Source of the DNA: Pseudomonas anguilliseptica
GTDB taxonomy: Bacteria; Pseudomonadota; Gammaproteobacteria; Pseudomonadales; Pseudomonadaceae
NCBI RefSeq assembly: GCF_021375795.1
Contig: NZ_JAEIOI010000001.1
Coordinates: 1,426,001 to 1,490,000 of the forward strand
Reading direction: 5' to 3'
Length of the DNA: 64,000 nt
A model generated the notes under the pieces. It searched no databases. It saw nothing but the letters and a program-made list of their open reading frames with translations, and had not been told where the DNA came from. The position numbers and the translations under genes are program-made. Shown here in pieces: positions 23,115 to 35,994 of the stretch (positions are counted from its first letter, which is position 1; each line of letters starts with the position of its first letter).

Positions 23115-23153
23115 CGCGTGGGCGGGGATGCTACTTTTACAGGGAACATACGC

Positions 23154-24038
23154 ATGAGCATGGTGCTGGGTGACGCCTTGTCACTGCTGCTGTTTCGTCT
23201 GCACAGCGGCCGCCTGTTGGGCATCAACCTGCTGAAAGTGCAGGAAATCATTCCTTGTCCGACGCTAACCAAACTGCCTAGCCGGCATCCCCATGTACGC
23301 GGTGTGGCTACCTTGCGCGGCTCTGCATTGACGGTCATTGACCTAGGCAAGGCGATTGGCGAGCAGGGCGTACCCGGCAACCACGACGGTTGCCTGATTG
23401 TTACCGAACTCAGCCGCTCGCGTCAGGGCCTGCATGTGCAGAGCGTCGAGCGTATTGTGCAGTGCTACACCCGTGACGTTCGCCCGCCACCGGCCGGTTC
23501 TGGTCGCACGGCCTTTATCACTGGGGTGACACAGATCGACGGCAAGATCGTGCAGATTCTCGATATCGAGAAAGTGCTGCACGAGTTGGCTCCAGCACTG
23601 GTTGAAGACATCGACGAACAATTGCTCTCCGATCGCGAGCGCGCATTGCTCAGCGGGCGTCGGGTACTGGTGGTGGATGATTCCCAGGTTGCGTTGCAAC
23701 AGACCATGATTACCCTGCGCAAACTTGAGCTGGACTGCCAGATGGTGCGCAGTGCGGCGGCTGCGCTGGAGTTGTTGCAGGCACAATATGCGGCGGGCCA
23801 ACCAATCGAGGTTCTGGTGTCGGATATCGAGATGCCAGAAATGGATGGCTACGACCTGGTTCGCACGTTGCGCAAAAAGCCCGATATCGGTGATATCTAT
23901 GTGCTTTTGCACACCTCGCTCGACAGCACCATGAACACCGAAAAAGCCAATGCGGTGGGCGCGAACGACGTGCTGACCAAGTTCTCCACTGTCGACCTCA
24001 GCAAAGCCTTGGTGTGTGCATTCGAAAGCTTGCAGTAG
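23154..24038 (+). CDS. cheV: CheV chemotaxis coupling protein
   Basis: 294 residues: CheW-like domain (about 10-160, KVQEIIPCP and [16 protein letters not shown]) followed by a receiver domain (about 170-290) with acceptor Asp in [18 protein letters not shown] at the start and Lys in LTKFST. CheV proteins couple chemoreceptors to the CheA kinase and can be phosphorylated. ATG 23154 is chosen because AGGGAA lies eight bases upstream; a start at 23118 has none. A second CheV gene is at 35059. Confidence 0.88.
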
Positions 24039-27052: not shown

Positions 27053-28075
27053 TCAGCTACTGCGCCTGCTCTCGCGAAATTCGCCTGGGGTCTGCCCGGT
27101 CCAGGTCTTGAAGCTGCGGTGGAATGAACGGGATTCGGTAAAGCCCAGGTAGCTGGCGATATCCTGAATCGCCAAGTCGCTGCGCAGCAGGTAGTGCTCG
27201 GCCAACTCCTGGCGCAATTCATCGAGAATCTGCTGGTAGCTGGTGCCGGCCAGTTGCAGGTGACGCTGCAGGGTGCGCACCGTCATGTTGAATTTCTCCG
27301 CCACCCGCTCCTTGCGCGGCAAACCATCCTTGAGCAGCAGGCGCAGGGCGTTCTTTACCCGTTGTGGCAGCGGCTCGTTGTCGTCCAGTCCGGCCATCAG
27401 GGTCAGGGCGTGTTCTTCCAGGGTGCGCAGCAGGTTGGCATCGGCCTGACGCAGCGGCACCGCGAGGTATTCCAGCGGTACGATCAGCGCATTGCAGCTT
27501 TGTTCGAAGCGGATCGGGCAGCCGAAAATCGTCTGGTACTCGGCAATATCGACGCCTTCAGGCAGGGCGTGTTCGAACCACACCTCCCGCGGCGAACTGT
27601 CGGAGTCGGAGATCCAGCGCGCATACAGCAACCACGAAGCCAGTACGTTTTCCACCATGTGCCGGCGGATCGGCTCAGCCTGATGGCGACAGGTCCAGAT
27701 CAGGCGAACGTGATCTGCGCCGGCCTCGACCCGGCTGACACCCATATCCCCCACCAGCTTCTCGTAAGGCACGATGCGGCTCATGGCCTCACCGAGGGTG
27801 GCGCAGTTCATGGTGATATAGCCCAGCACGCTCCACGAACCCGGCTGTACAAAGCGCGCGCAGTGCAGGCCAAACAGCGGGTCATCGGACACCGCCAGCA
27901 AGTGGCCGAGCAGGCGTTCATGGGTTTCACTGGGCATGCGCTTGCTGTTGTCGGTCAGCTCCTCGGCCTTGATGCCGGCTGCCGCCAAGGCCTGGTCGAT
28001 ATCCAGACCCAGCTGTTCGGCATGGCGCAGGTACTTGAGCAGGGCAGGGACAGAGGTGTAGCCGAGGTTTTCCAT
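27053..28075 (-). CDS. AraC-family regulator with arabinose-binding-like N-terminal domain
   Basis: 340 residues. The N-terminal domain (about 1-200) is of the Arabinose_bd type seen in OruR/ArgR-like regulators (YTSVPALLKYLRHAEQLGLD). The C terminus holds two helix-turn-helix motifs (VAEKFNMTVRTLQRHLQLAG and IQDIASYLGFTESRSFHRSF). It is divergent, across 125 bases, from the flavoprotein/dehydrogenase/kinase operon and is probably its activator. The inducer is unknown. Confidence 0.85.
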   Translation of the reverse strand: MENLGYTSVPALLKYLRHAEQLGLDIDQALAAAGIKAEELTDNSKRMPSETHERLLGHLLAVSDDPLFGLHCARFVQPGSWSVLGYITMNCATLGEAMSRIVPYEKLVGDMGVSRVEAGADHVRLIWTCRHQAEPIRRHMVENVLASWLLYARWISDSDSSPREVWFEHALPEGVDIAEYQTIFGCPIRFEQSCNALIVPLEYLAVPLRQADANLLRTLEEHALTLMAGLDDNEPLPQRVKNALRLLLKDGLPRKERVAEKFNMTVRTLQRHLQLAGTSYQQILDELRQELAEHYLLRSDLAIQDIASYLGFTESRSFHRSFKTWTGQTPGEFRESRRSS

Positions 28076-28200
28076 GGATTGTTCTTATTCTGAATGTCTT
28101 GATTGGCGATAAGGCCTGGCTCGATTCGACAGTGACGCCTGGACGCGGCTCGCTAGTATAGGCAGCCATCGAGGGTGACTGAAATATCCGGGAGAAGCAG

Positions 28201-29796
28201 ATGCGACGTTGGAACGGCTGGGGTGATGACGCAACAGTGGTGGAGCTGCCGGCCCATGGCGAGGCTTTTCTGGCTGAGCTGGTTGGCTCTGGCCAGGTGC
28301 TGGCCGATGCCAGCCTGGAGCAGGTGCTGGCGCAGGTGCCGGCCTCGCGTCTGCAGGCTCATCCGCTGATCTGTCTGAATGCCGAAGACCGTGTGCGTCA
28401 CGCCCGTGGCCAGAGCCTGCCGGACTGGCTGGCGATGCGCTCGGGCGATTTTGGCGTATTCCCTGATGGTGTGGCCTACCCGGAAAGTGCCGCGCAGATA
28501 CGCGAGCTGCTGGCCTGGGCCAGCCAGCAGGATCTGATCGTGATTCCATACGGCGGCGGCACCTCGGTGGCTGGCCATATCAACCCGCAGGCCAGCAACA
28601 AACCGGTGCTGACCCTGTCGCTGGCGCGCATGAGCAAACTGATCGAAATCGACCACGACAGCCTGATTGCCACCTTCGGCCCGGGTGCCAATGGCCCGCA
28701 GGTGGAAAGCCAGTTGCGTGCGCAGGGCTACACCCTCGGCCATTTCCCGCAGTCCTGGGAGCTGTCGACTCTCGGTGGTTGGGTCGCCAGCCGTTCCAGT
28801 GGCCAGCAGTCGCTGCGCTACGGCCGCATCGAGCAGCTGTTTGCTGGCGGCAAGGTCGAGACCTTTGCCGGCACCCTGGAAATTCCGACCTTTCCGGCCT
28901 CGGCCGCAGGCCCGGACCTGCGCGAAGTGCTGATGGGCTCGGAAGGGCGCTTCGGCATCATTTCCGAGGTCAAGGTGCGCATCACCCGCCTGGCCGAGCA
29001 GGAAAATTTCTATGCAGTGTTCCTGCCCAACTGGCAGCAGGCACTGAGCGCCATTCGCAGCCTGGCCCAGGCGCGCGTACCGTTGTCGATGCTGCGCCTG
29101 TCAAACGCCATCGAAACCAAAACCCAACTGGCCCTGGCCGGTCATCCACAGCAGATCGCCTGGCTGGAGAAATACCTGGCCCTGCGCGGCGCGCGTGACG
29201 GCAAGTGCATGCTGACCTTTGGCGTCACCGGCAGCCGCACGCAGAACGCCGCGTCGCTGAAGCAGGCGAAGAAGCTGCTGAAAAGCTTTGGCGGGGTGTT
29301 TACCGGCACCTTGCTGGGTAAAAAGTGGGCAGAAAACCGCTTCCGTTTCCCCTACCTGCGCCATGGCCTGTGGGCCGCGGGTTATGCGGTGGACACCCTG
29401 GAAACCGCCACCGACTGGAGCAATGTCGACAGCTTGCTGAACAAGGTCGAGAGCAGCCTGCGCAACGGCCTGAGCGAGGAGGGCGAGCAGGTGCATGTGT
29501 TTACCCACCTGTCCCACGTCTACAACGAAGGCTCGAGCATCTACACCACCTACGTGTTCCGTCCGGGTGCGAACTACGCCGAGGCCATGGCGCGCTGGCA
29601 GAAGCTCAAACATGCCGCCAGCCTGACCATCGCCGAGAACCGCGGCACCATCAGCCACCAACATGGTGTTGGTCGTGATCACGCGCCTTACCTGCCGGTG
29701 GAGAAGGGCGAACTGGGCATGGCCACGCTCAAGGCGCTTGCCGGGCATTTCGACCCTGAGCAGCGCCTGGCACCAGGCGTGCTGATTCAGGATTGA
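28201..29796 (+). CDS. FAD-binding oxidase, alkyldihydroxyacetonephosphate-synthase-like
   Basis: 531 residues. A PCMH-type FAD domain (about 95-280: VIPYGGGTSVAGHINP, GSEGRFGIISEVKVR) is followed by an FAD-linked oxidase C-terminal domain (about 280-530) ending HQHGVGRDHAPYL, the motif position used by alkyl-DHAP synthase and related VAO-family enzymes. It begins an operon with a FAD glycerol-3-phosphate dehydrogenase-like gene and an FGGY kinase. The substrate is unknown; a glycerol-ether, alkyl-DHAP or 2-hydroxyacid substrate is an inference from fold and context. Confidence 0.8.
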   Translation: MRRWNGWGDDATVVELPAHGEAFLAELVGSGQVLADASLEQVLAQVPASRLQAHPLICLNAEDRVRHARGQSLPDWLAMRSGDFGVFPDGVAYPESAAQIRELLAWASQQDLIVIPYGGGTSVAGHINPQASNKPVLTLSLARMSKLIEIDHDSLIATFGPGANGPQVESQLRAQGYTLGHFPQSWELSTLGGWVASRSSGQQSLRYGRIEQLFAGGKVETFAGTLEIPTFPASAAGPDLREVLMGSEGRFGIISEVKVRITRLAEQENFYAVFLPNWQQALSAIRSLAQARVPLSMLRLSNAIETKTQLALAGHPQQIAWLEKYLALRGARDGKCMLTFGVTGSRTQNAASLKQAKKLLKSFGGVFTGTLLGKKWAENRFRFPYLRHGLWAAGYAVDTLETATDWSNVDSLLNKVESSLRNGLSEEGEQVHVFTHLSHVYNEGSSIYTTYVFRPGANYAEAMARWQKLKHAASLTIAENRGTISHQHGVGRDHAPYLPVEKGELGMATLKALAGHFDPEQRLAPGVLIQD

Positions 29797-31406
29797 TGAT
29801 GAGCAACTGGAACGCCGCCTGGCGCGAACAGGCGCTGCCCGAACTGGCCGCACGCGATTGGGATCTGATCGTCGTCGGCGGTGGCATCAGCGGTGCCGGG
29901 ATTCTGCGTGAAGCGGCGCGGCGCGGCTGGAAATGCCTGTTGCTGGAGCAGCGCGACTTTGCCTGGGGTACGTCCAGCCGTTCCTCGAAGATGGTGCATG
30001 GCGGATTGCGCTATATCGCCAAGGGCCAGTTTGGCCTGACTCGTGATTCGGTGCGCGAGCGCCAGCGTCTGCTGCAGGAGGCGCCGGGCTTGGTCGATCC
30101 CTTGAGTTTTATCATAGCCCACTACCAGGGCGGCTTTCCCGGCCCTCGGGTTTTCGGTGGGCTGCTGGCGGTGTACGACGCCCTGGCCGGCAAGCGCAAT
30201 CATCTGTACTACCCGCTGCAGCAACTGCGATATCTGGCGCCGGGTATCAAAGAAGATGGCCTGCTCGGCGGCACACGGTTTTTCGATGCGGTAACCGACG
30301 ACGCACGGCTGGTGCAGCGTGTACTGGGCGAGGCGCGCACCGACGGGGGCGAAGCGCTTAACGGCATGCGCGTGGTCGAGTTGCTGCGTGAAAACGGGCA
30401 GGTCACTGGCCTGCTTGCCGAAGACAGTGAAAGCGGCTTGCGTTATGGCTTCAAAACCCGCGCCGTGGCGCAGGCCACGGGGGCCTGGGCCGATCAGCTG
30501 CGGCAGAAGACTGGTCTGGAACATATCCGCCCGCTGCGTGGCAGCCACCTGCTGCTGCCGGCCTGGCGCTTGCCGGTGGCGCATGCGTTCAGCTTTATGC
30601 ATGCGGCGGACAAGCGCCCGGTGTTTGTCTTCCCCTGGGAAGGCGCGACGGTAATTGGCACCACCGATCTCGATCACCCGGCACCGCTAGCCGAGGAGGC
30701 GCGGATCAGCTCGGATGAGGTTACGTATTTACTGGATGCCTGCGCTCAGCAGTTTCCTGCGGCGCAGATCAAGGCAGTGGATGTGCTGTCGACCTGGGCT
30801 GGCGTGCGTCCGGTGGTCAGCGATGGCGCACCGGGGCGCAAACCTTCGGATGAGAAACGCGAGCATGCGCTGTGGATCGAGCCCGGCTGCGTGACCCTGG
30901 CCGGCGGCAAGCTGACCACCTTCCGCCTGCTGGCGCTGGAAGTGTTGCAGGCCTGCGCACCGATGGTCGGGCGCAGTGTGGATGATCAGGGCGCGGCGAC
31001 CTTTGCCGCCGTGGCGCGTCAGCCGATGTCGCAGTTAAGCCCGGCTCAGCAGAAACGCCTGATTGGTCGTTACGGCCGGGCGCTGCCGCAGGTGCTGGCG
31101 TTGGTCGATGAACTGGGTGTCGAGCAGGTGGCCGGCACGGACACGCTGTGGGCCGAGCTGGCCTGGGCGGCCGAGCAGGAGCTGGTGCTGCACCTGGATG
31201 ACCTGCTGCTGCGCCGCACACGTTTGGGCCTGCTGCTGGCGTGCGGCGCGGCGGCCGAACTGCCGCTTATCCGTGCGCTGTGTCAGGCCCGCCTGGGGTG
31301 GGATGACGCGCGCTGGCAAGAGGAAGAACAGGCGTATCTGCAACTCTGGCAGCGTTGCTACAGCCTGCCGGTGGAACATGGATCACGAGGAAGGACGGCG
31401 TCTTGA
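29796..31406 (+). CDS. FAD-dependent glycerol-3-phosphate dehydrogenase/oxidase-like protein
   Basis: 536 residues. The FAD dinucleotide fold is at about 24-50 (VVGGGISGAGILREAARRG), followed by the GlpD/GlpA signature WGTSSRSSKMVHGGLRYI. A C-terminal helical cap domain is present. The ATG at 29796 overlaps the previous stop by one base (TGATG); 29799 is also possible. It is a paralogue-type enzyme rather than obvious housekeeping GlpD, since glpF/glpK/glpR are absent. It would oxidise G3P or a related polyol phosphate with quinone as acceptor. Confidence 0.83.
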   Translation: MMSNWNAAWREQALPELAARDWDLIVVGGGISGAGILREAARRGWKCLLLEQRDFAWGTSSRSSKMVHGGLRYIAKGQFGLTRDSVRERQRLLQEAPGLVDPLSFIIAHYQGGFPGPRVFGGLLAVYDALAGKRNHLYYPLQQLRYLAPGIKEDGLLGGTRFFDAVTDDARLVQRVLGEARTDGGEALNGMRVVELLRENGQVTGLLAEDSESGLRYGFKTRAVAQATGAWADQLRQKTGLEHIRPLRGSHLLLPAWRLPVAHAFSFMHAADKRPVFVFPWEGATVIGTTDLDHPAPLAEEARISSDEVTYLLDACAQQFPAAQIKAVDVLSTWAGVRPVVSDGAPGRKPSDEKREHALWIEPGCVTLAGGKLTTFRLLALEVLQACAPMVGRSVDDQGAATFAAVARQPMSQLSPAQQKRLIGRYGRALPQVLALVDELGVEQVAGTDTLWAELAWAAEQELVLHLDDLLLRRTRLGLLLACGAAAELPLIRALCQARLGWDDARWQEEEQAYLQLWQRCYSLPVEHGSRGRTAS

Positions 31407-32962
31407 GCGAGAAAAGTTATCTGCTGGCCATCGACAATGGCACCCAGAGCATTCGGGCGCTGTTGTTCGATCTTCAGGGCAATCTGCTCGCCAAGGGTAA
31501 GGTGGAGCTTGAGGCCTATTACTCCAAGCAGCCCGGCTGGGCCGAGCAGGACCCGGAATACTACTGGGCCAGCCTCGGCGAGGCCTGTGCGCAGCTGTGG
31601 CAGCAGGTGGATATCGACCGCAGTCGAATCAAGGGCGTATCGCTGACTACCCAGCGCGGCAGCCTGATCAATGTCGACGCGCAAGGCCAACCACTGCGTC
31701 CTGCCATGCTCTGGCTCGATCAGCGTCAGGCCGAGGTGCGTGGGCCGATCAAGGGCCCCTGGGGCTGGCTGTTCAAGATCGCCGGGGTGCAGGCCACGGT
31801 GGATCATTTTCGCGCCCAGGCCGAGGTCAACTGGATCGCGCAAAACCAGCCGGACATCTGGGCCAAGACCCACAAGGTGCTGTTGCTCTCAGGCTTTCTC
31901 ACCCATCGGCTGTGCGACCAGTTTGTCGACTCGTTGACCAGTTGCGTGGCTTACCTGCCATTCGACTACAAACGCCTGCAGTGGGCCAAACCCGGCGACT
32001 GGAAATGGCAGGCCATGCCGGTGCGCCGCGAGCAGTTGTCGGAATTACGCAAGCCGGGCGAGATGCTTGGTCATATCACGGCGGCGGCCAGCCGGCATAC
32101 CGGGATTCCCGAAGGCTTGCCGCTGATTGCTGCTGGTGCTGACAAGGCCTGTGAGGTGCTTGGTGCAGGCGGCGTGGAGCCGACAACGGCCTGTCTGTCC
32201 TATGGCACCACGGCGACCATCAACACCACACGCAGCAAGTACCTGGAAACCATCCCGCTGATCCCGCCATACCCGTCGGCGATTCCTGATCACTTCAACA
32301 CCGAGGTGATGATCTATCGCGGTTTCTGGATGGTCAGTTGGTTCAAAAAAGAATTTGGTCTGCGCGAAATGCAGCGGGCCAAGGAGCTGGGCGTCGAGCC
32401 TGAGGCGCTGTTTGATGAGCTGGTCAACAGCGTACCGGCTGGCTCCATGGGCCTGATGCTGCAGCCGTACTGGTCTCCGGGCATTCGTGAACCAGGGTTG
32501 GAGGCCAAGGGTTCGATCATCGGCTTTGGCGACGTGCACACCCGCGCGCACATCTACCGGGCGATTCTGGAAGGGCTGGCCTATGCCCTGCGTCAGGGCA
32601 AGGAAAAGATCGAGAAGCGCTCGGGCACGCGCATCACCCGCCTGCGCGTCTCCGGCGGCGGCTCGCAGAGCGATGCGGCCATGCAGCTGACCGCCGATAT
32701 TTTCGGCCTGCCGGCCGAGCGTCCGCATCTGTATGAAACCAGTGGTCTGGGGGCGGCGATCAACTGCGCGGTGGGCTTGGGTTTACATCCGGATTACCCG
32801 ACTGCGATCAAAGCCATGACCCGCGTAGGTGACGTATTCACGCCCAATCCTGAGGCGCAGCGCACCTATCAGCAGCTGTACACCCAGGTTTATCAGCGCA
32901 TGTATAAGCAGCTTAAACCGCTGTATCAGACCATTCGCAAAATTACCGGCTATCCAGCGTAA
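31403..32962 (+). CDS. FGGY-family carbohydrate kinase
   Basis: 519 residues from a TTG at 31403, supported by AGGAAGGA seven bases upstream and by overlap with the preceding stop. N-terminal phosphate-binding motif AIDNGTQSIRALLFD, catalytic Asp in AAGADKACEVLG and C-terminal SGGGSQSDAAMQ are intact. The family phosphorylates sugars or polyols (glycerol, xylulose, ribulose). The substrate is not readable. Third gene of a translationally coupled operon; its product could feed the neighbouring dehydrogenase. Confidence 0.83.
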   Translation: MSEKSYLLAIDNGTQSIRALLFDLQGNLLAKGKVELEAYYSKQPGWAEQDPEYYWASLGEACAQLWQQVDIDRSRIKGVSLTTQRGSLINVDAQGQPLRPAMLWLDQRQAEVRGPIKGPWGWLFKIAGVQATVDHFRAQAEVNWIAQNQPDIWAKTHKVLLLSGFLTHRLCDQFVDSLTSCVAYLPFDYKRLQWAKPGDWKWQAMPVRREQLSELRKPGEMLGHITAAASRHTGIPEGLPLIAAGADKACEVLGAGGVEPTTACLSYGTTATINTTRSKYLETIPLIPPYPSAIPDHFNTEVMIYRGFWMVSWFKKEFGLREMQRAKELGVEPEALFDELVNSVPAGSMGLMLQPYWSPGIREPGLEAKGSIIGFGDVHTRAHIYRAILEGLAYALRQGKEKIEKRSGTRITRLRVSGGGSQSDAAMQLTADIFGLPAERPHLYETSGLGAAINCAVGLGLHPDYPTAIKAMTRVGDVFTPNPEAQRTYQQLYTQVYQRMYKQLKPLYQTIRKITGYPA

Positions 32963-32993
32963 AAAGCTGCTGCGCGTCGGCCCTGCTGCGTTA

Positions 32994-33049
32994 AAAACAG
33001 GCTCGGAATGCTCATGTACAAAAGTACACTCCGCGTCCTCGCCTGTTTT
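32994..33049. repeat. 56-bp concentric palindromic intergenic element
   Basis: Outer arms AAAACAGGC/GCCTGTTTT and inner arms GTAC-AAAA-GTAC share one centre. It lies between the kinase and pirin stops in a 168-base convergent gap. From memory, similar sequences recur in pseudomonad intergenic regions. It may serve as a terminator or a mobile-derived repeat. Confidence 0.6.
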
Positions 33050-33130
33050 GACCAGCCGGAGGCTGTTACTAACGTAGCGCCTTGCAGGACTCTAGCTCGC
33101 GAGCCTTTGGACAGGTTCTGCTATGGCGGG

Positions 33131-33829
33131 TCAGGCCACATCCACCAAGATGATTTCGCTATCTTCGATGGCCGTCACGCGGATCACGTCCACATCGCTG
33201 ACTGCCACGCCATCACGAGCCTGGGCGCTGACGCCGTTGACTTCGATGCTGCCGCTGGCCGCTACCAGATAGGCTTTGCGCGCCGCACCAGTCGGGTACT
33301 CGGTGCTTTGTCCCGCTTTCAGAGTGGCGGCAGCCATCCGCGCGTTGCTACGGATCGACAGAGCGTCGCTATCCTCTGCATAGCCGCTGGCCAGAGTGAC
33401 AAACGCGCCGGCACGTTCACCTTTGGGGAACGGTTTGGCGCCCCACGACGGAGGTAGGCCTGACTGGTTGGGCTGAATCCAGATCTGGAAAATCTTGGTG
33501 GTGGTGTCTTCGAGGTTGTATTCGCTATGGGCAATCCCGGTACCGGCGCTCATTACCTGCACATCACCGGCTTCGGTACGGCCATGGTTACCCAGGTTGT
33601 CCTTGTGGGTGATGGCCCCTTGGCGTACATAGGTGATGATTTCCATGTCGCGATGCGGATGAGTCGGAAAGCCCGTGTGCGGAGCAATTTCATCATCGTT
33701 CCACACCCGCAGCGGCCCCCAGCCCATACGCGCCGGGTCATAGTATTCGGCAAAGGAAAAGTGATGACGGGCATTCAGCCAGCCATGATTGGCACCGCCG
33801 AGCTCGGCGAAGGGGCGTACTTCGATCAT
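33131..33829 (-). CDS. Pirin family protein (bicupin)
   Basis: 232 residues from ATG 33829 (MIEVRPFAELGG), with GAGG eight bases upstream. The cupin metal-binding pattern is present: FPTHPHRDMEIITYV (two His and a downstream Glu) and GTGIAHSEYN. The family includes quercetin 2,3-dioxygenases (YhhW type) and redox-sensing proteins. The specific substrate is unknown. An in-frame start at 33898 adds 23 residues without support. Confidence 0.85.
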   Translation of the reverse strand: MIEVRPFAELGGANHGWLNARHHFSFAEYYDPARMGWGPLRVWNDDEIAPHTGFPTHPHRDMEIITYVRQGAITHKDNLGNHGRTEAGDVQVMSAGTGIAHSEYNLEDTTTKIFQIWIQPNQSGLPPSWGAKPFPKGERAGAFVTLASGYAEDSDALSIRSNARMAAATLKAGQSTEYPTGAARKAYLVAASGSIEVNGVSAQARDGVAVSDVDVIRVTAIEDSEIILVDVA

Positions 33830-33932
33830 CTGCATATCCTCATAGATAAACACCGGCTTTTGGCTGCAGTGTTGGTTGGCGATGAACAGATCATCCAATA
33901 AATCAATGTGATTAAAAATGCGTAATTTTTGG

Positions 33933-33955
33933 ATTTAATTATCGATTAAATCGAT
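33933..33955. promoter_or_regulatory. AT-rich dyad in the pirin/yegS divergent promoter region
   Basis: ATTTAAT-N5-ATTAAAT (33933-33951) overlaps ATCGAT-N3-ATCGAT (33941-33955). This is the most AT-rich stretch nearby and lies about 55-80 bases before the lipid-kinase start. It resembles an operator for an unidentified regulator. Confidence 0.4.
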
Positions 33956-34010
33956 ATTTAGACCGGGTACTGCACTGTGTGTCGACTAAAGCGTGATGAG
34001 GATATCGGGA

Positions 34011-34907
34011 ATGCAAGAACGTAAAGCGCTGCTGATCCTGCACGGCAAACAGGCCCTCAATGCCGAAGTGCGTACTGCTGTAGAGGTGCGTCGTGCGCAG
34101 GGTTGGCAGCTGGATGTGCGAGTCACCTGGGAAGCTGGTGATGCCCAGCGCCTGGTCAATGAAGCCCTGGCAGCGGGCTATCCAACGCTGATTGCCGGTG
34201 GCGGCGACGGCACCCTGCGTGATGTGGCCGAAGCCATGGCGCTGGCCAAAACCCAGGCTAGTCTGGCGCTGTTGCCACTGGGCACCGCCAATGATTTTGC
34301 CCGCGCCGCCGGTGTTGCGCTTGAACCGCAGGCGGCGTTGGCCTTGCTGGATGAGCCGGCACAACCGATTGATCTGGGCGAAGTCGACGGCCAGGTGTTC
34401 CTCAATATGGCCACCGGCGGTTTTGGCTCCAATGTCACCGCAAATACCTCGGAAGAGCTCAAGCGGGTGCTCGGCGGTGCGGCGTATTTCCTCACGGGGC
34501 TGACCCGCTTTGCCGAGGTGCGTTCATCCTTTGGCCGCTTTGCGGGGCCGGATTTCCAATGGGAGGGTGAGTTTCTTGCCCTCGGCATTGGCAACGGACG
34601 TCAGGCCGGTGGCGGGCATGTGCTTTGTCCGCAGGCTCAGGTCAATGATGGTTTGCTGGATGTCTGCATCGTGCCGGCGGCCACTGATGTGGTGGGCACT
34701 CTGGGCACACTACTATCCGGCGGTATCAATGGTCTGCAGAGTGTCGCGATGAGTGCGCGTGTGCCTTGGCTGGAGGTGGAAGCCCCGGAAGGTCTGGACC
34801 TTAACCTCGATGGTGAGCCCATGGAAAGCCGTCAGCTGCGCTTTGTGGCCTTACCGGCTGCCTTGCGTGTGCATTTGCCAGTCCAGTCGCCGTTATTGCA
34901 GGAATAA
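34011..34907 (+). CDS. yegS: YegS-like lipid kinase (DAGK catalytic domain)
   Basis: 298 residues. The diacylglycerol-kinase catalytic motif GGGDGTLRDVAEAM (about 62-75) and PLGTANDFARAAG are intact, as is the C-terminal DGEP motif (NLDGEPME). E. coli YegS phosphorylates phosphatidylglycerol in vitro; the physiological lipid is unclear. ATG 34011 is chosen (AGGA nine bases upstream) over GTG 33993 and ATG 33996. Confidence 0.87.
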   Translation: MQERKALLILHGKQALNAEVRTAVEVRRAQGWQLDVRVTWEAGDAQRLVNEALAAGYPTLIAGGGDGTLRDVAEAMALAKTQASLALLPLGTANDFARAAGVALEPQAALALLDEPAQPIDLGEVDGQVFLNMATGGFGSNVTANTSEELKRVLGGAAYFLTGLTRFAEVRSSFGRFAGPDFQWEGEFLALGIGNGRQAGGGHVLCPQAQVNDGLLDVCIVPAATDVVGTLGTLLSGGINGLQSVAMSARVPWLEVEAPEGLDLNLDGEPMESRQLRFVALPAALRVHLPVQSPLLQE

Positions 34908-34977: not shown

Positions 34978-35058
34978 TCAGATGCGCGGCATATGGCCGA
35001 TACATCAGGTCATGGCTATTTGAGCTAGGCTAGATCGATAAGTAAACAGGAGCGCATG

Positions 35059-35994
35059 ATGGCCGGCATTCTCGACTCAGTGAACCAACGCACCCAGCTG
35101 GTGGGCGAGAACCGCCTGGAAATTCTGATGTTCCGCCTGACAGGCCGGCAGTTGTTTGCGATCAACGTGTTCAAGGTGCAGGAAGTCCTGCAGATGCCCA
35201 AGCTGACCCTGATGCCGCAGCGCCATCGCTTTGTCTGTGGGGTGGTCAACCTGCGCGGGCAGACCTTGCCGGTGATCGACCTGTCCCAGGCCATCGGCAT
35301 GCGCCCGATTGTGCCGGATGAACGCAGTACCATCATCGTCACCGAATACAACCGCTCGGTGCAGGCCTTCCTGGTCGGTGGGGTCGAGCGCATCCTCAAC
35401 CTCAATTGGGAGTCCATCCTGCCACCGCCGGGCGGGGCAGGGCGGCAGCATTACCTGACTGCGATCACCAAGGTCGAGGATCAGATTGTCGAAGTCATCG
35501 ATGTGGAGAAGGTGCTGGCAGAAATCAGCCCGATGAGCACCAAGGTATCTCCGGAAAAACTCGCCGACCCGCTGCTTGAGTACGCACGCGGGCGTGAAGT
35601 GCTGCTGGTGGATGACTCCAACGTAGCCATGAGCCAGCTCAAGGGCACCATGGCGCAACTGGACGTGCGTTGCCATTCGGCTAGTGACGGCTTGCGGGCG
35701 TTGAACTTACTGAAGAGCTGGGCCGATTCCGGCGTGGATGTGCACGAAAAACTGCTGATGGTGATTACCGATGCGGAAATGCCGGAGATGGACGGCTACC
35801 GCCTGACCACGGAAATTCGCAATGACTCGCGTCTCAAGGATTTGTACGTAGTCCTGCACACCTCGCTGTCCGGCAGCTTCAACGAGGCCATGGTGAAGAA
35901 GGTGGGTTGCGACAGTTTCCTGTCCAAGTTTCAGCCGGACAAACTGGTGGATGTGGTACGCGAGCGTCTAGCCCTGCTGCATCCTGACGAATAA
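35059..35994 (+). CDS. cheV: CheV chemotaxis coupling protein, second copy
   Basis: 311 residues. CheW-like domain (about 20-165: KVQEVLQMPKL, CGVVNLRGQTLPVIDL) then a receiver domain (about 175-305) with VDDSN, acceptor Asp in ITDAEMPEMDG and Lys in LSKFQP. ATG 35059 fits the AGGAG six bases upstream better than ATG 35056. It is similar in layout to the CheV at 23154 but diverged in sequence. It stands alone, not in a che operon. Confidence 0.88.
   Translation: MAGILDSVNQRTQLVGENRLEILMFRLTGRQLFAINVFKVQEVLQMPKLTLMPQRHRFVCGVVNLRGQTLPVIDLSQAIGMRPIVPDERSTIIVTEYNRSVQAFLVGGVERILNLNWESILPPPGGAGRQHYLTAITKVEDQIVEVIDVEKVLAEISPMSTKVSPEKLADPLLEYARGREVLLVDDSNVAMSQLKGTMAQLDVRCHSASDGLRALNLLKSWADSGVDVHEKLLMVITDAEMPEMDGYRLTTEIRNDSRLKDLYVVLHTSLSGSFNEAMVKKVGCDSFLSKFQPDKLVDVVRERLALLHPDE

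Follow-up and report, generated by a model that had tools for sequence, protein, structure and literature searches.

A GliR-type operon of Pseudomonas anguilliseptica that may turn AGPS-like chemistry to the breakdown of glycerol ethers

Why would a bacterium keep a relative of AGPS, the alkyl-dihydroxyacetone-phosphate synthase of animal ether-lipid synthesis, in one operon with a relative of the glycerol-3-phosphate (G3P) dehydrogenase GlpD and an FGGY-family kinase? The question is raised by a 64,000-nucleotide stretch of the Pseudomonas anguilliseptica genome (contig NZ_JAEIOI010000001.1, positions 1,426,001 to 1,490,000; hereafter the window, in whose own numbering positions are given), where these three genes overlap and are faced by a divergent AraC-type regulator gene. 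Comparing the locus with its relatives, we see about an even chance that lipid-derived 1-O-substituted glycerols would be phosphorylated here, oxidized by the GlpD-like protein, and cleaved by the AGPS-like enzyme into dihydroxyacetone phosphate (DHAP) and an alcohol. This degradative reading is favored because the partner genes, the conserved residues, the direction of the chemistry, and a link to a phospholipase fit it best.

The operon and its published counterpart

The locus comprises the following features:

28201 to 29796, plus strand: AGPS-like FAD enzyme, PA3026 type (531 amino acids, ATG start)
29796 to 31406, plus strand: GlpD-like FAD dehydrogenase, PA3025 type (start at ATG 29796 or TTG 29793)
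31403 to 32962, plus strand: FGGY kinase, PA3024 type (TTG start)
27053 to 28075, minus strand: gliR, divergent AraC-type activator gene (NCBIfam equivalog and Pfam)
28076 to 28200: divergent control region with a two-part site, GATTGGCGA (28101) and GATTCGACAGTG (28123)
33131 to 33898, minus strand: pirin family gene between the kinase gene and yegS (Pfam Pirin)
33993 to 34907, plus strand: YegS lipid kinase gene, PA3023 type, a probable regulon member (TIGR03702)

Open reading frames and Pfam domains place the three genes and the divergent AraC gene where a preliminary description of this DNA had put them, with FAD_binding_4 and FAD-oxidase_C in the AGPS-like protein, DAO and DAO_C in the GlpD-like protein, FGGY_N and FGGY_C in the kinase, and Arabinose_bd and HTH_18 in the AraC protein. 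Its overlaps of 1 to 4 bases are also correct: the AGPS-like stop codon TGA (29794-29796) overlaps the GlpD-like gene by 1 base if the ATG is used or 4 bases if the TTG is, and the GlpD-like stop (31404-31406) and the kinase TTG at 31403 overlap by 4 bases. The closest named relative of the AGPS-like protein is that of P. peli (98%).

The locus is the published GliR (PA3027)/PA3026-PA3023 cluster, and the operon is not new. The equivalence to PA3023-PA3027 drawn in the preliminary description holds, since the AraC protein scores 666 bits with the NCBIfam GliR equivalog (cut-off 570) and the genes and their order are the same, including the divergent gliR; the YegS protein passes TIGR03702 (443 bits, cut-off 387). 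The order of AGPS-like, GlpD-like, FGGY, and then yegS is thus that of the window too, with a pirin gene inserted that is not thought to belong to the pathway. This insertion has already been reported for P. mendocina, so the window arrangement is known (PMC8151288).

In P. aeruginosa, GliR directly activates the PA3026-PA3023 cluster and binds at the PA3026 promoter by chromatin immunoprecipitation sequencing and electrophoretic mobility shift assay (PMC8151288). Excess GliR raises the mRNA of PA3026-PA3024 by 135- to 173-fold, that of PA3023 by 47-fold, and that of the phospholipase C gene PA3464 by 130-fold, and switches on the operon promoter in Escherichia coli without a known ligand (PMC8151288, including its Table 1). 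The same paper further gives relatively low operon expression in LB and M9, activity of PlcA on phosphatidylcholine, phosphatidylserine, and phosphatidylethanolamine, and, among 1748 genomes, the whole cluster in four and gliR plus the triple part in eight more. The three genes named in the preliminary description stand, and the P. aeruginosa regulon (PA3027, PA3026-PA3023, PA3464) also takes in YegS and a PlcA-type phospholipase. A microarray paper on cis-2-decenoic acid does no more than name PA3025 in a gene list.

Conserved residues, gene partners, and direction of the chemistry

A close-relative sample was formed from the best 80 of 502 AGPS-like relatives and the window, giving 81 loci that are nearly all Pseudomonas and so not independent, with flanks of at most 8 kb, some ended by contig ends. 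The AGPS-like, GlpD-like, and FGGY genes occur together in all 81 (in L098 the locus end truncates the kinase). Their other partners are gliR (74 loci), yegS (39), moaB with moeA (31), and pirin (23). Measured from the in-frame start closest to the preceding stop, which biases them to short distances and for which no shuffled control was made, AGPS-to-GlpD spacings in the 80 relatives are -4 in 32, +2 in 21, +4 in 12, and -1 in 9, and GlpD-to-kinase spacings are looser (-1 in 18, -4 in 12, the remainder spread).

The less biased class and phylum samples have an AGPS-like match at E 1e-40 in 10 of 229 and 19 of 349 genomes, respectively, with 29 distinct loci after two seen twice were removed. 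Neighborhoods were covered for 26 of them (G279, G356, and G364 were left out): 17 carry all three genes on a single strand, one (L027) runs into a contig end after GlpD, and eight have neither partner in the stretch available, the genes of L030 and L031 lying at a contig start. The full triple spans 11 gammaproteobacterial families, with one more cut by a contig end, plus L142 of another class. Plasmid searches at E 1e-60 returned no record for the GlpD-like protein and one for the kinase. The triple on a Rhodanobacter thiooxydans contig (L071) falls inside the Pseudomonas clade (support 97) with no gliR in its flank, and is likely a recent transfer or a stray contig.

The solved proteins most similar in sequence to the AGPS-like protein are AGPS enzymes (2uuu, E 5e-68; 4bby, E 9e-58). 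Aligned to 2uuu, whose printed chain numbers are three lower than the Dictyostelium numbering, Y448, R299, and R387 of the window protein correspond to Y508, R352, and R447 of Dictyostelium AGPS, which are important by mutagenesis (PMC3509576). The three are invariant in the window protein and six relatives, and over a 116-row alignment (two rows eukaryotic, covering loci other than the later L154-L166) the Tyr/Arg/Arg set is kept except for the second Arg in L115, L142, and L143. Homology to AGPS is thus clear, and an N-terminal WNGWG motif, not significant alone, is visible; however, the window protein belongs to a separate clade, has GlpD and a kinase as partners, and carries the histidine triad HQH where both solved enzymes have HHH. 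HQH occurs in 96 of the 116 rows, all of them GlpD-linked gammaproteobacterial proteins including the window's, and HHH in the other 20, namely L028 and 19 others. Since L028 is the sole gammaproteobacterial GlpD-FGGY protein with HHH, HQH is found in 96 of 97 proteins of the clade.

The two partners can be read in the same way. Against the curated GlpD model, the GlpD-like protein scores 275.9 bits, below the cut-off of 360, and the G3P-contact residues H50, R54, Y55, R317, and K354 are each kept in 100 of 100 cluster proteins. For the kinases, positions were located by motif in this genome's GlpK. Among 98 kinases, R83 is kept in 97, W103 in 98, and D245 in 97, and the glycerol contacts of GlpK are nearly gone (E84 in none, Y135 in one, Q246 in two with lysine in 94, F270 in none). 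The window kinase falls below the curated cut-offs for GlpK (156.9 bits, cut-off 590) and XylB (253.8 bits, cut-off 380), with xylulokinase the top-scoring named model. Judged by residues and curated cut-offs, the FGGY kinase is not a GlpK.

A plain second glycerol pathway is disfavored because the kinase lacks the GlpK contacts and canonical genes exist elsewhere in the genome (glpD, a DeoR/glpR-like gene identified by eye, and glpK at C1:1.296-1.301 Mb). The absence of canonical glpFKR genes claimed in the preliminary description accordingly applies to the window and not to the genome, glpF not having been part of the search.

The xylulokinase scores, although below the cut-off, could also suit erythritol-type polyol-phosphate catabolism, in which the kinase would act on a small polyol, the GlpD-like protein would yield a ketose phosphate, and the AGPS-like protein would be a further dehydrogenase. 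A GntP permease gene about 5 kb upstream in 14 of the 81 loci fits this, as do operons of Roseibium, Shinella, and Paracoccus in which a sugar ABC importer is encoded alongside a glycerol-dehydrogenase-like protein. Pathways of the erythritol type presumably have isomerases beside the kinase and the GlpD-like gene, and this candidate was set aside for the window cluster, where the open reading frames and Pfam gave no isomerase, aldolase, or importer gene at 27053-34907. The kept AGPS residues and the lipid kinase and phospholipase partners found elsewhere also speak against polyol catabolism, which we regard as improbable.

A different question is whether the AGPS-like enzyme builds ether lipids. 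The pathway suggested in PMC8151288 runs from glycerol through G3P, DHAP, and acyl-DHAP to alkyl-DHAP: the kinase would make G3P, the GlpD-like protein DHAP, an unlinked acyltransferase acyl-DHAP, and the AGPS-like enzyme alkyl-DHAP for ether lipids. The kept AGPS catalytic residues agree with this synthetic proposal, and so does the rise of phospholipase C and YegS mRNA under GliR excess. The kinase without GlpK glycerol contacts does not, and the window cluster has no acyltransferase or reductase gene by open reading frames and Pfam. In ether-lipid synthesis, acyl transfer precedes AGPS and reduction follows it, whereas GlpD-type enzymes oxidize. For animals, the step after AGPS is given as a reduction (PMC13200781).

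Two of the eight partnerless loci, by contrast, have the expected genes. L029 (2591-6972) holds genes for hydroxymethylglutaryl-CoA reductase, an acyltransferase, an AGPS-like protein, and a short-chain dehydrogenase/reductase (SDR) in a row, and L030 (452-4777) holds genes for an AGPS-like protein that groups with guinea-pig AGPS (support 100), a GPAT-like acyltransferase, and a NAD_binding_4 protein. Both are gammaproteobacterial, resemble the animal ether-lipid pathway in gene content, and look biosynthetic; no such gene set was identified in the other six. Genome G112 has both kinds, L030 and the GlpD-FGGY cluster L023, in which unrelated genes separate the kinase from an acyltransferase gene about four kilobases further on.

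Of the 22 most widespread neighbor clusters among the relatives, seven were put to Pfam. They are a phospholipase type (no match), DUF1302, DUF1329, the GntP permease, DUF5610, a MOSC protein, and an amidohydrolase whose gene lies about 2 kb upstream in 21 loci, with no lipid-synthesis acyltransferase or reductase among them. Given also that a co-regulated phospholipase suits degradation better, we consider the synthetic role unlikely. The commonest neighbor cluster (35 of 81) is a CheV-like type, and similar genes for CheW plus a receiver (CheV-like, by eye) flank the region in the window at 23118-24038 and 35056-35994.

A predicted control site shared with a PlcA-type gene

A conserved core upstream of the operon was taken from the consensus of 10 aligned Pseudomonas intergenic regions. 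The two-part pattern GATTGGYGA and GATWCGACAGTG, 10 to 15 bases apart, has two matches in the genome, one before the operon and one before the PlcA-type gene, a uniqueness that is partly post hoc since the pattern was loosened after the phospholipase site had been seen; the reversed pattern has no match in the genome. The phospholipase site was spotted by eye, a fixed-spacing 39-base pattern having given 15 mismatches there, and the spacing was then varied. The second half-site lies 78 bases before the AGPS-like start and 75 before the likely PlcA-type start. The paired score of 20 at the phospholipase site was reached by none of 2000 Markov sequences (maximum 18) and compares with a maximum of 17 in 25 real upstream regions. 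The predicted site points to a link between the PlcA-type phospholipase and the operon in this genome also, as in the GliR regulon.

Published GliR motif A has its best match upstream of the operon at 28116, with 2 mismatches, and is found with at most 2 mismatches in 27 of 81 related upstream regions versus 50 of 810 shuffles; motif B shows little enrichment (20 of 81 versus 146 of 810). Promoter and terminator scans gave nothing exceeding shuffles. DUF2804 (PA3342 type) was tried as a further target of the site and rejected: neither of the two DUF2804 genes of this genome has a close copy nearby, the best matches having 15 and 16 mismatches to the fixed-spacing 39-base pattern, which missed the phospholipase site as well.

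In 25 of 103 loci, genes of the phospholipase type (429-amino-acid type), DUF1302, and DUF1329 stand in a row behind the kinase on the same strand, the first starting 118 to 551 bases after it. All 25 are Pseudomonas, fall between L078 and L110, and have gliR and no yegS in the flank; L103 (11862-16489) is an example of the arrangement. The two DUF families may have a part in how lipids are handled at the cell surface. For the phospholipase-type protein, neither Pfam nor NCBIfam gave a match at 0.001, and a search for solved relatives gave none at 0.1. We take it to be probably of the PlcA (PA3464) type because both PA3464 RT-qPCR primers (PMC8151288) translate to peptides within it: of the two translations, NLFSDN and PFHMGF, the first occurs in the protein at 176 and the FHMGF part of the second at 209. 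The window genome has one relative, 53% identical, at C1:1160544. What is new here is the two-part site before both the operon and the PlcA-type gene, together with the phospholipase gene behind the operon in 25 of 103 loci.

The phospholipase result slightly raises the lipid-ether reading and lowers the polyol and synthetic rivals. On the degradative reading, alkylglycerols would be freed from ether phospholipids by the co-regulated phospholipase C, and the FGGY kinase, or YegS for greasy substrates, would phosphorylate C3. The GlpD-like flavoprotein, whose active site is conserved, would then oxidize C2 to give a 1-O-substituted DHAP. With its catalytic residues conserved, the AGPS-like enzyme could form the covalent DHAP-flavin adduct proposed for AGPS; the ether alcohol would be expelled and water would enter, giving DHAP and the alcohol. 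Variants of this last step would be exchange with a fatty acid or an oxidative cleavage like that of polyethylene glycol (PEG)-carboxylate dehydrogenase. GliR would switch the genes on; their induction by GliR and their joint transcript have been shown in P. aeruginosa only. The comparisons thus favor the order of kinase, GlpD-like, and AGPS-like steps in the catabolic module of the preliminary description, although "complete" does not fit a window cluster in which no transporter gene was seen. The degradative reading also departs from the synthetic one proposed for the same genes in P. aeruginosa (PMC8151288).

Parallel assemblies and the weight of the evidence

Three lineages combine AGPS-like, glycerol-phosphate dehydrogenase, and kinase genes, and they differ in GlpD clade and kinase type. 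In quick trees with several long branches flagged, one clade (99) is made up of the gammaproteobacterial GlpD-like proteins and another (100) of those from three actinobacterial records, whereas L142, whose gene order is GlpD-AGPS-FGGY, has a GlpD that joins Bacillus and Streptococcus enzymes (SH-aLRT 95) and a kinase that joins GlpK (99). Clusters of Streptomyces fungicidicus and Tsukamurella hold GlpD, TetR, AGPS-like, and YegS/diacylglycerol-kinase-type genes, and in Nonomuraea GlpD adjoins the AGPS-like gene. This Rv2249c-Rv2252-type cluster unites a regulator with AGPS-like, GlpD-like, and YegS-type kinase genes as the window does; unlike the window, it has no FGGY kinase, its GlpD is of another clade, and its triad is HHH. 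For the BCG counterparts of Rv2249c, Rv2250c, Rv2251, and Rv2252, values of 2.28, 2.11, 2.16, and 2.20 are listed, the unit not being given in the part of the source available (PMC4564863).

Further AGPS-like genes keep other company. Loci L115 (7843-17875), L157, and L158 of Roseibium, Shinella, and Paracoccus hold genes for LacI, an AGPS-like protein, an FGGY kinase annotated as xylulokinase, a UgpC-type ABC importer, an iron alcohol dehydrogenase, and an SDR. In L114, L117, L165, and L140 (the last by eye), the AGPS-like gene is followed by a CaiB/BaiF CoA-transferase gene, with a LysR gene and at least one part of a tripartite tricarboxylate transporter (all three in L114), a set with the look of an operon for ether-carboxylate catabolism. 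A Rhodococcus plasmid (L156; 4785-5717, 5986-7590, 7782-8426) has an AGPS-like gene beside SDR and FA_hydroxylase-family genes, and a second gene, annotated as a sterol desaturase, is nearby.

A precedent for ether cleavage by an AGPS-like flavoprotein may come from plasmids, where 4 of 50 records with an AGPS-like match have a glutathione S-transferase (GST) gene behind it (L160 to L163). On the Sphingopyxis macrogoltabida EY-1 plasmid, the pair lies with AraC, AMP ligase, major facilitator superfamily, TonB receptor, and GMC oxidoreductase genes; on that of Xanthobacter dioxanivorans, it lies with ABC importer, GMC oxidoreductase, aldehyde dehydrogenase, CoA ligase, and glycolate oxidase genes; the other two are on plasmids of Ancylobacter polymorphus and an Aminobacter. 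The pairs sit with CoA ligase, GMC oxidoreductase, or monooxygenase genes. Judging from their species names, we take these strains to be ether degraders. The PEG-carboxylate dehydrogenase of S. terrae and of S. macrogoltabida 103 and 203 splits its ether into glyoxylate and a shortened PEG (PMC7299911), and the plasmid proteins could possibly belong to its family. The presumed S. macrogoltabida PEG locus resembles the window in having an AGPS-like flavoprotein near an AraC gene and differs from it in clade and in its GST, GMC oxidoreductase, and CoA ligase partners; Pfam gave no GST gene in the window cluster.

Several observations weigh against the degradative reading or its wider extension. 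That the EY-1 protein (L161) is a PEG-carboxylate dehydrogenase is something we infer, and its clade is separate from that of the window protein, to which it is about 29% identical. In the Roseibium, Shinella, and Paracoccus operons, the sugar-type ABC importer suggests that the substrate is polar. L142 sits on a long branch and, in the alignment, is without the second Arg. The AGPS tree does not resolve its deep branches, and the gammaproteobacterial and actinobacterial GlpD-linked AGPS-like proteins group together at 73, so that the two sets may share one origin. The cluster is patchy, being carried by two of the eight other same-genus genomes listed, and the control pattern was in part fitted after the fact. 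Phospholipase C also frees ordinary diacylglycerol, and the lipid link does not prove an ether. n-Octadecane lowered rather than raised the PA3026 protein. Finally, deleting the operon or gliR in P. aeruginosa left growth normal, whether on rich medium, on citrate or glycerol, or on the BIOLOG plates used (PMC8151288). The growth tests proposed in the preliminary description have thus been partly done, with no defect on glycerol or BIOLOG, and glycerol ethers are not named in the available part of that paper.

Normal growth of the deletion strains would be expected if the operon served turnover or repair, recycling glycerolipids from the cell's own membrane that are damaged or unusual, without a role in growth. 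The lipid kinase partner in Pseudomonas and Actinobacteria and the phospholipase link are compatible with this. A dedicated AraC activator and relatively low expression in LB and M9, however, suggest an external inducer, and the activity of excess GliR in E. coli without a known ligand fits either case; on balance, we think a turnover role unlikely.

With more reserve than for the window operon itself, and at rather less than even chances, we suggest that the AGPS-like, kinase, and GlpD-like set could be a pathway of general occurrence in bacteria for taking glycerol ether lipids apart, with AGPS chemistry run in the degradative direction. Such a pathway would have been assembled more than once with different kinases and dehydrogenases, would be free of tetrahydrobiopterin and fed by a PlcA-type enzyme in Pseudomonas, and would include the actinobacterial cluster of GlpD1, flavoprotein, and lipid kinase. 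AGMO, a tetrahydrobiopterin-dependent monooxygenase acting on the same kind of substrate as proposed here, is called the sole known enzyme of alkylglycerol breakdown in the abstract of PMC7911779; if the degradative reading is true, the operon would add an ether-lipid cleavage route unlike it.

Many Pseudomonas, though not all, carry the GliR operon, and in P. aeruginosa its expression rises more than 100-fold when the regulator is in excess. Were its substrates alkylglycerols or ether phospholipids, the negative outcome of the published glycerol and BIOLOG screens would be accounted for. If the reading holds, these bacteria would dismantle ether glycerolipids with a relative of the very enzyme by which animals build them. 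It would also call for caution in scoring AGPS homologues as makers of ether lipids, as may matter for surveys such as the marine metagenome study that counted AGPS homologues at 30% identity and E below 1e-30 with a Myxococcus query (PMC11868695).

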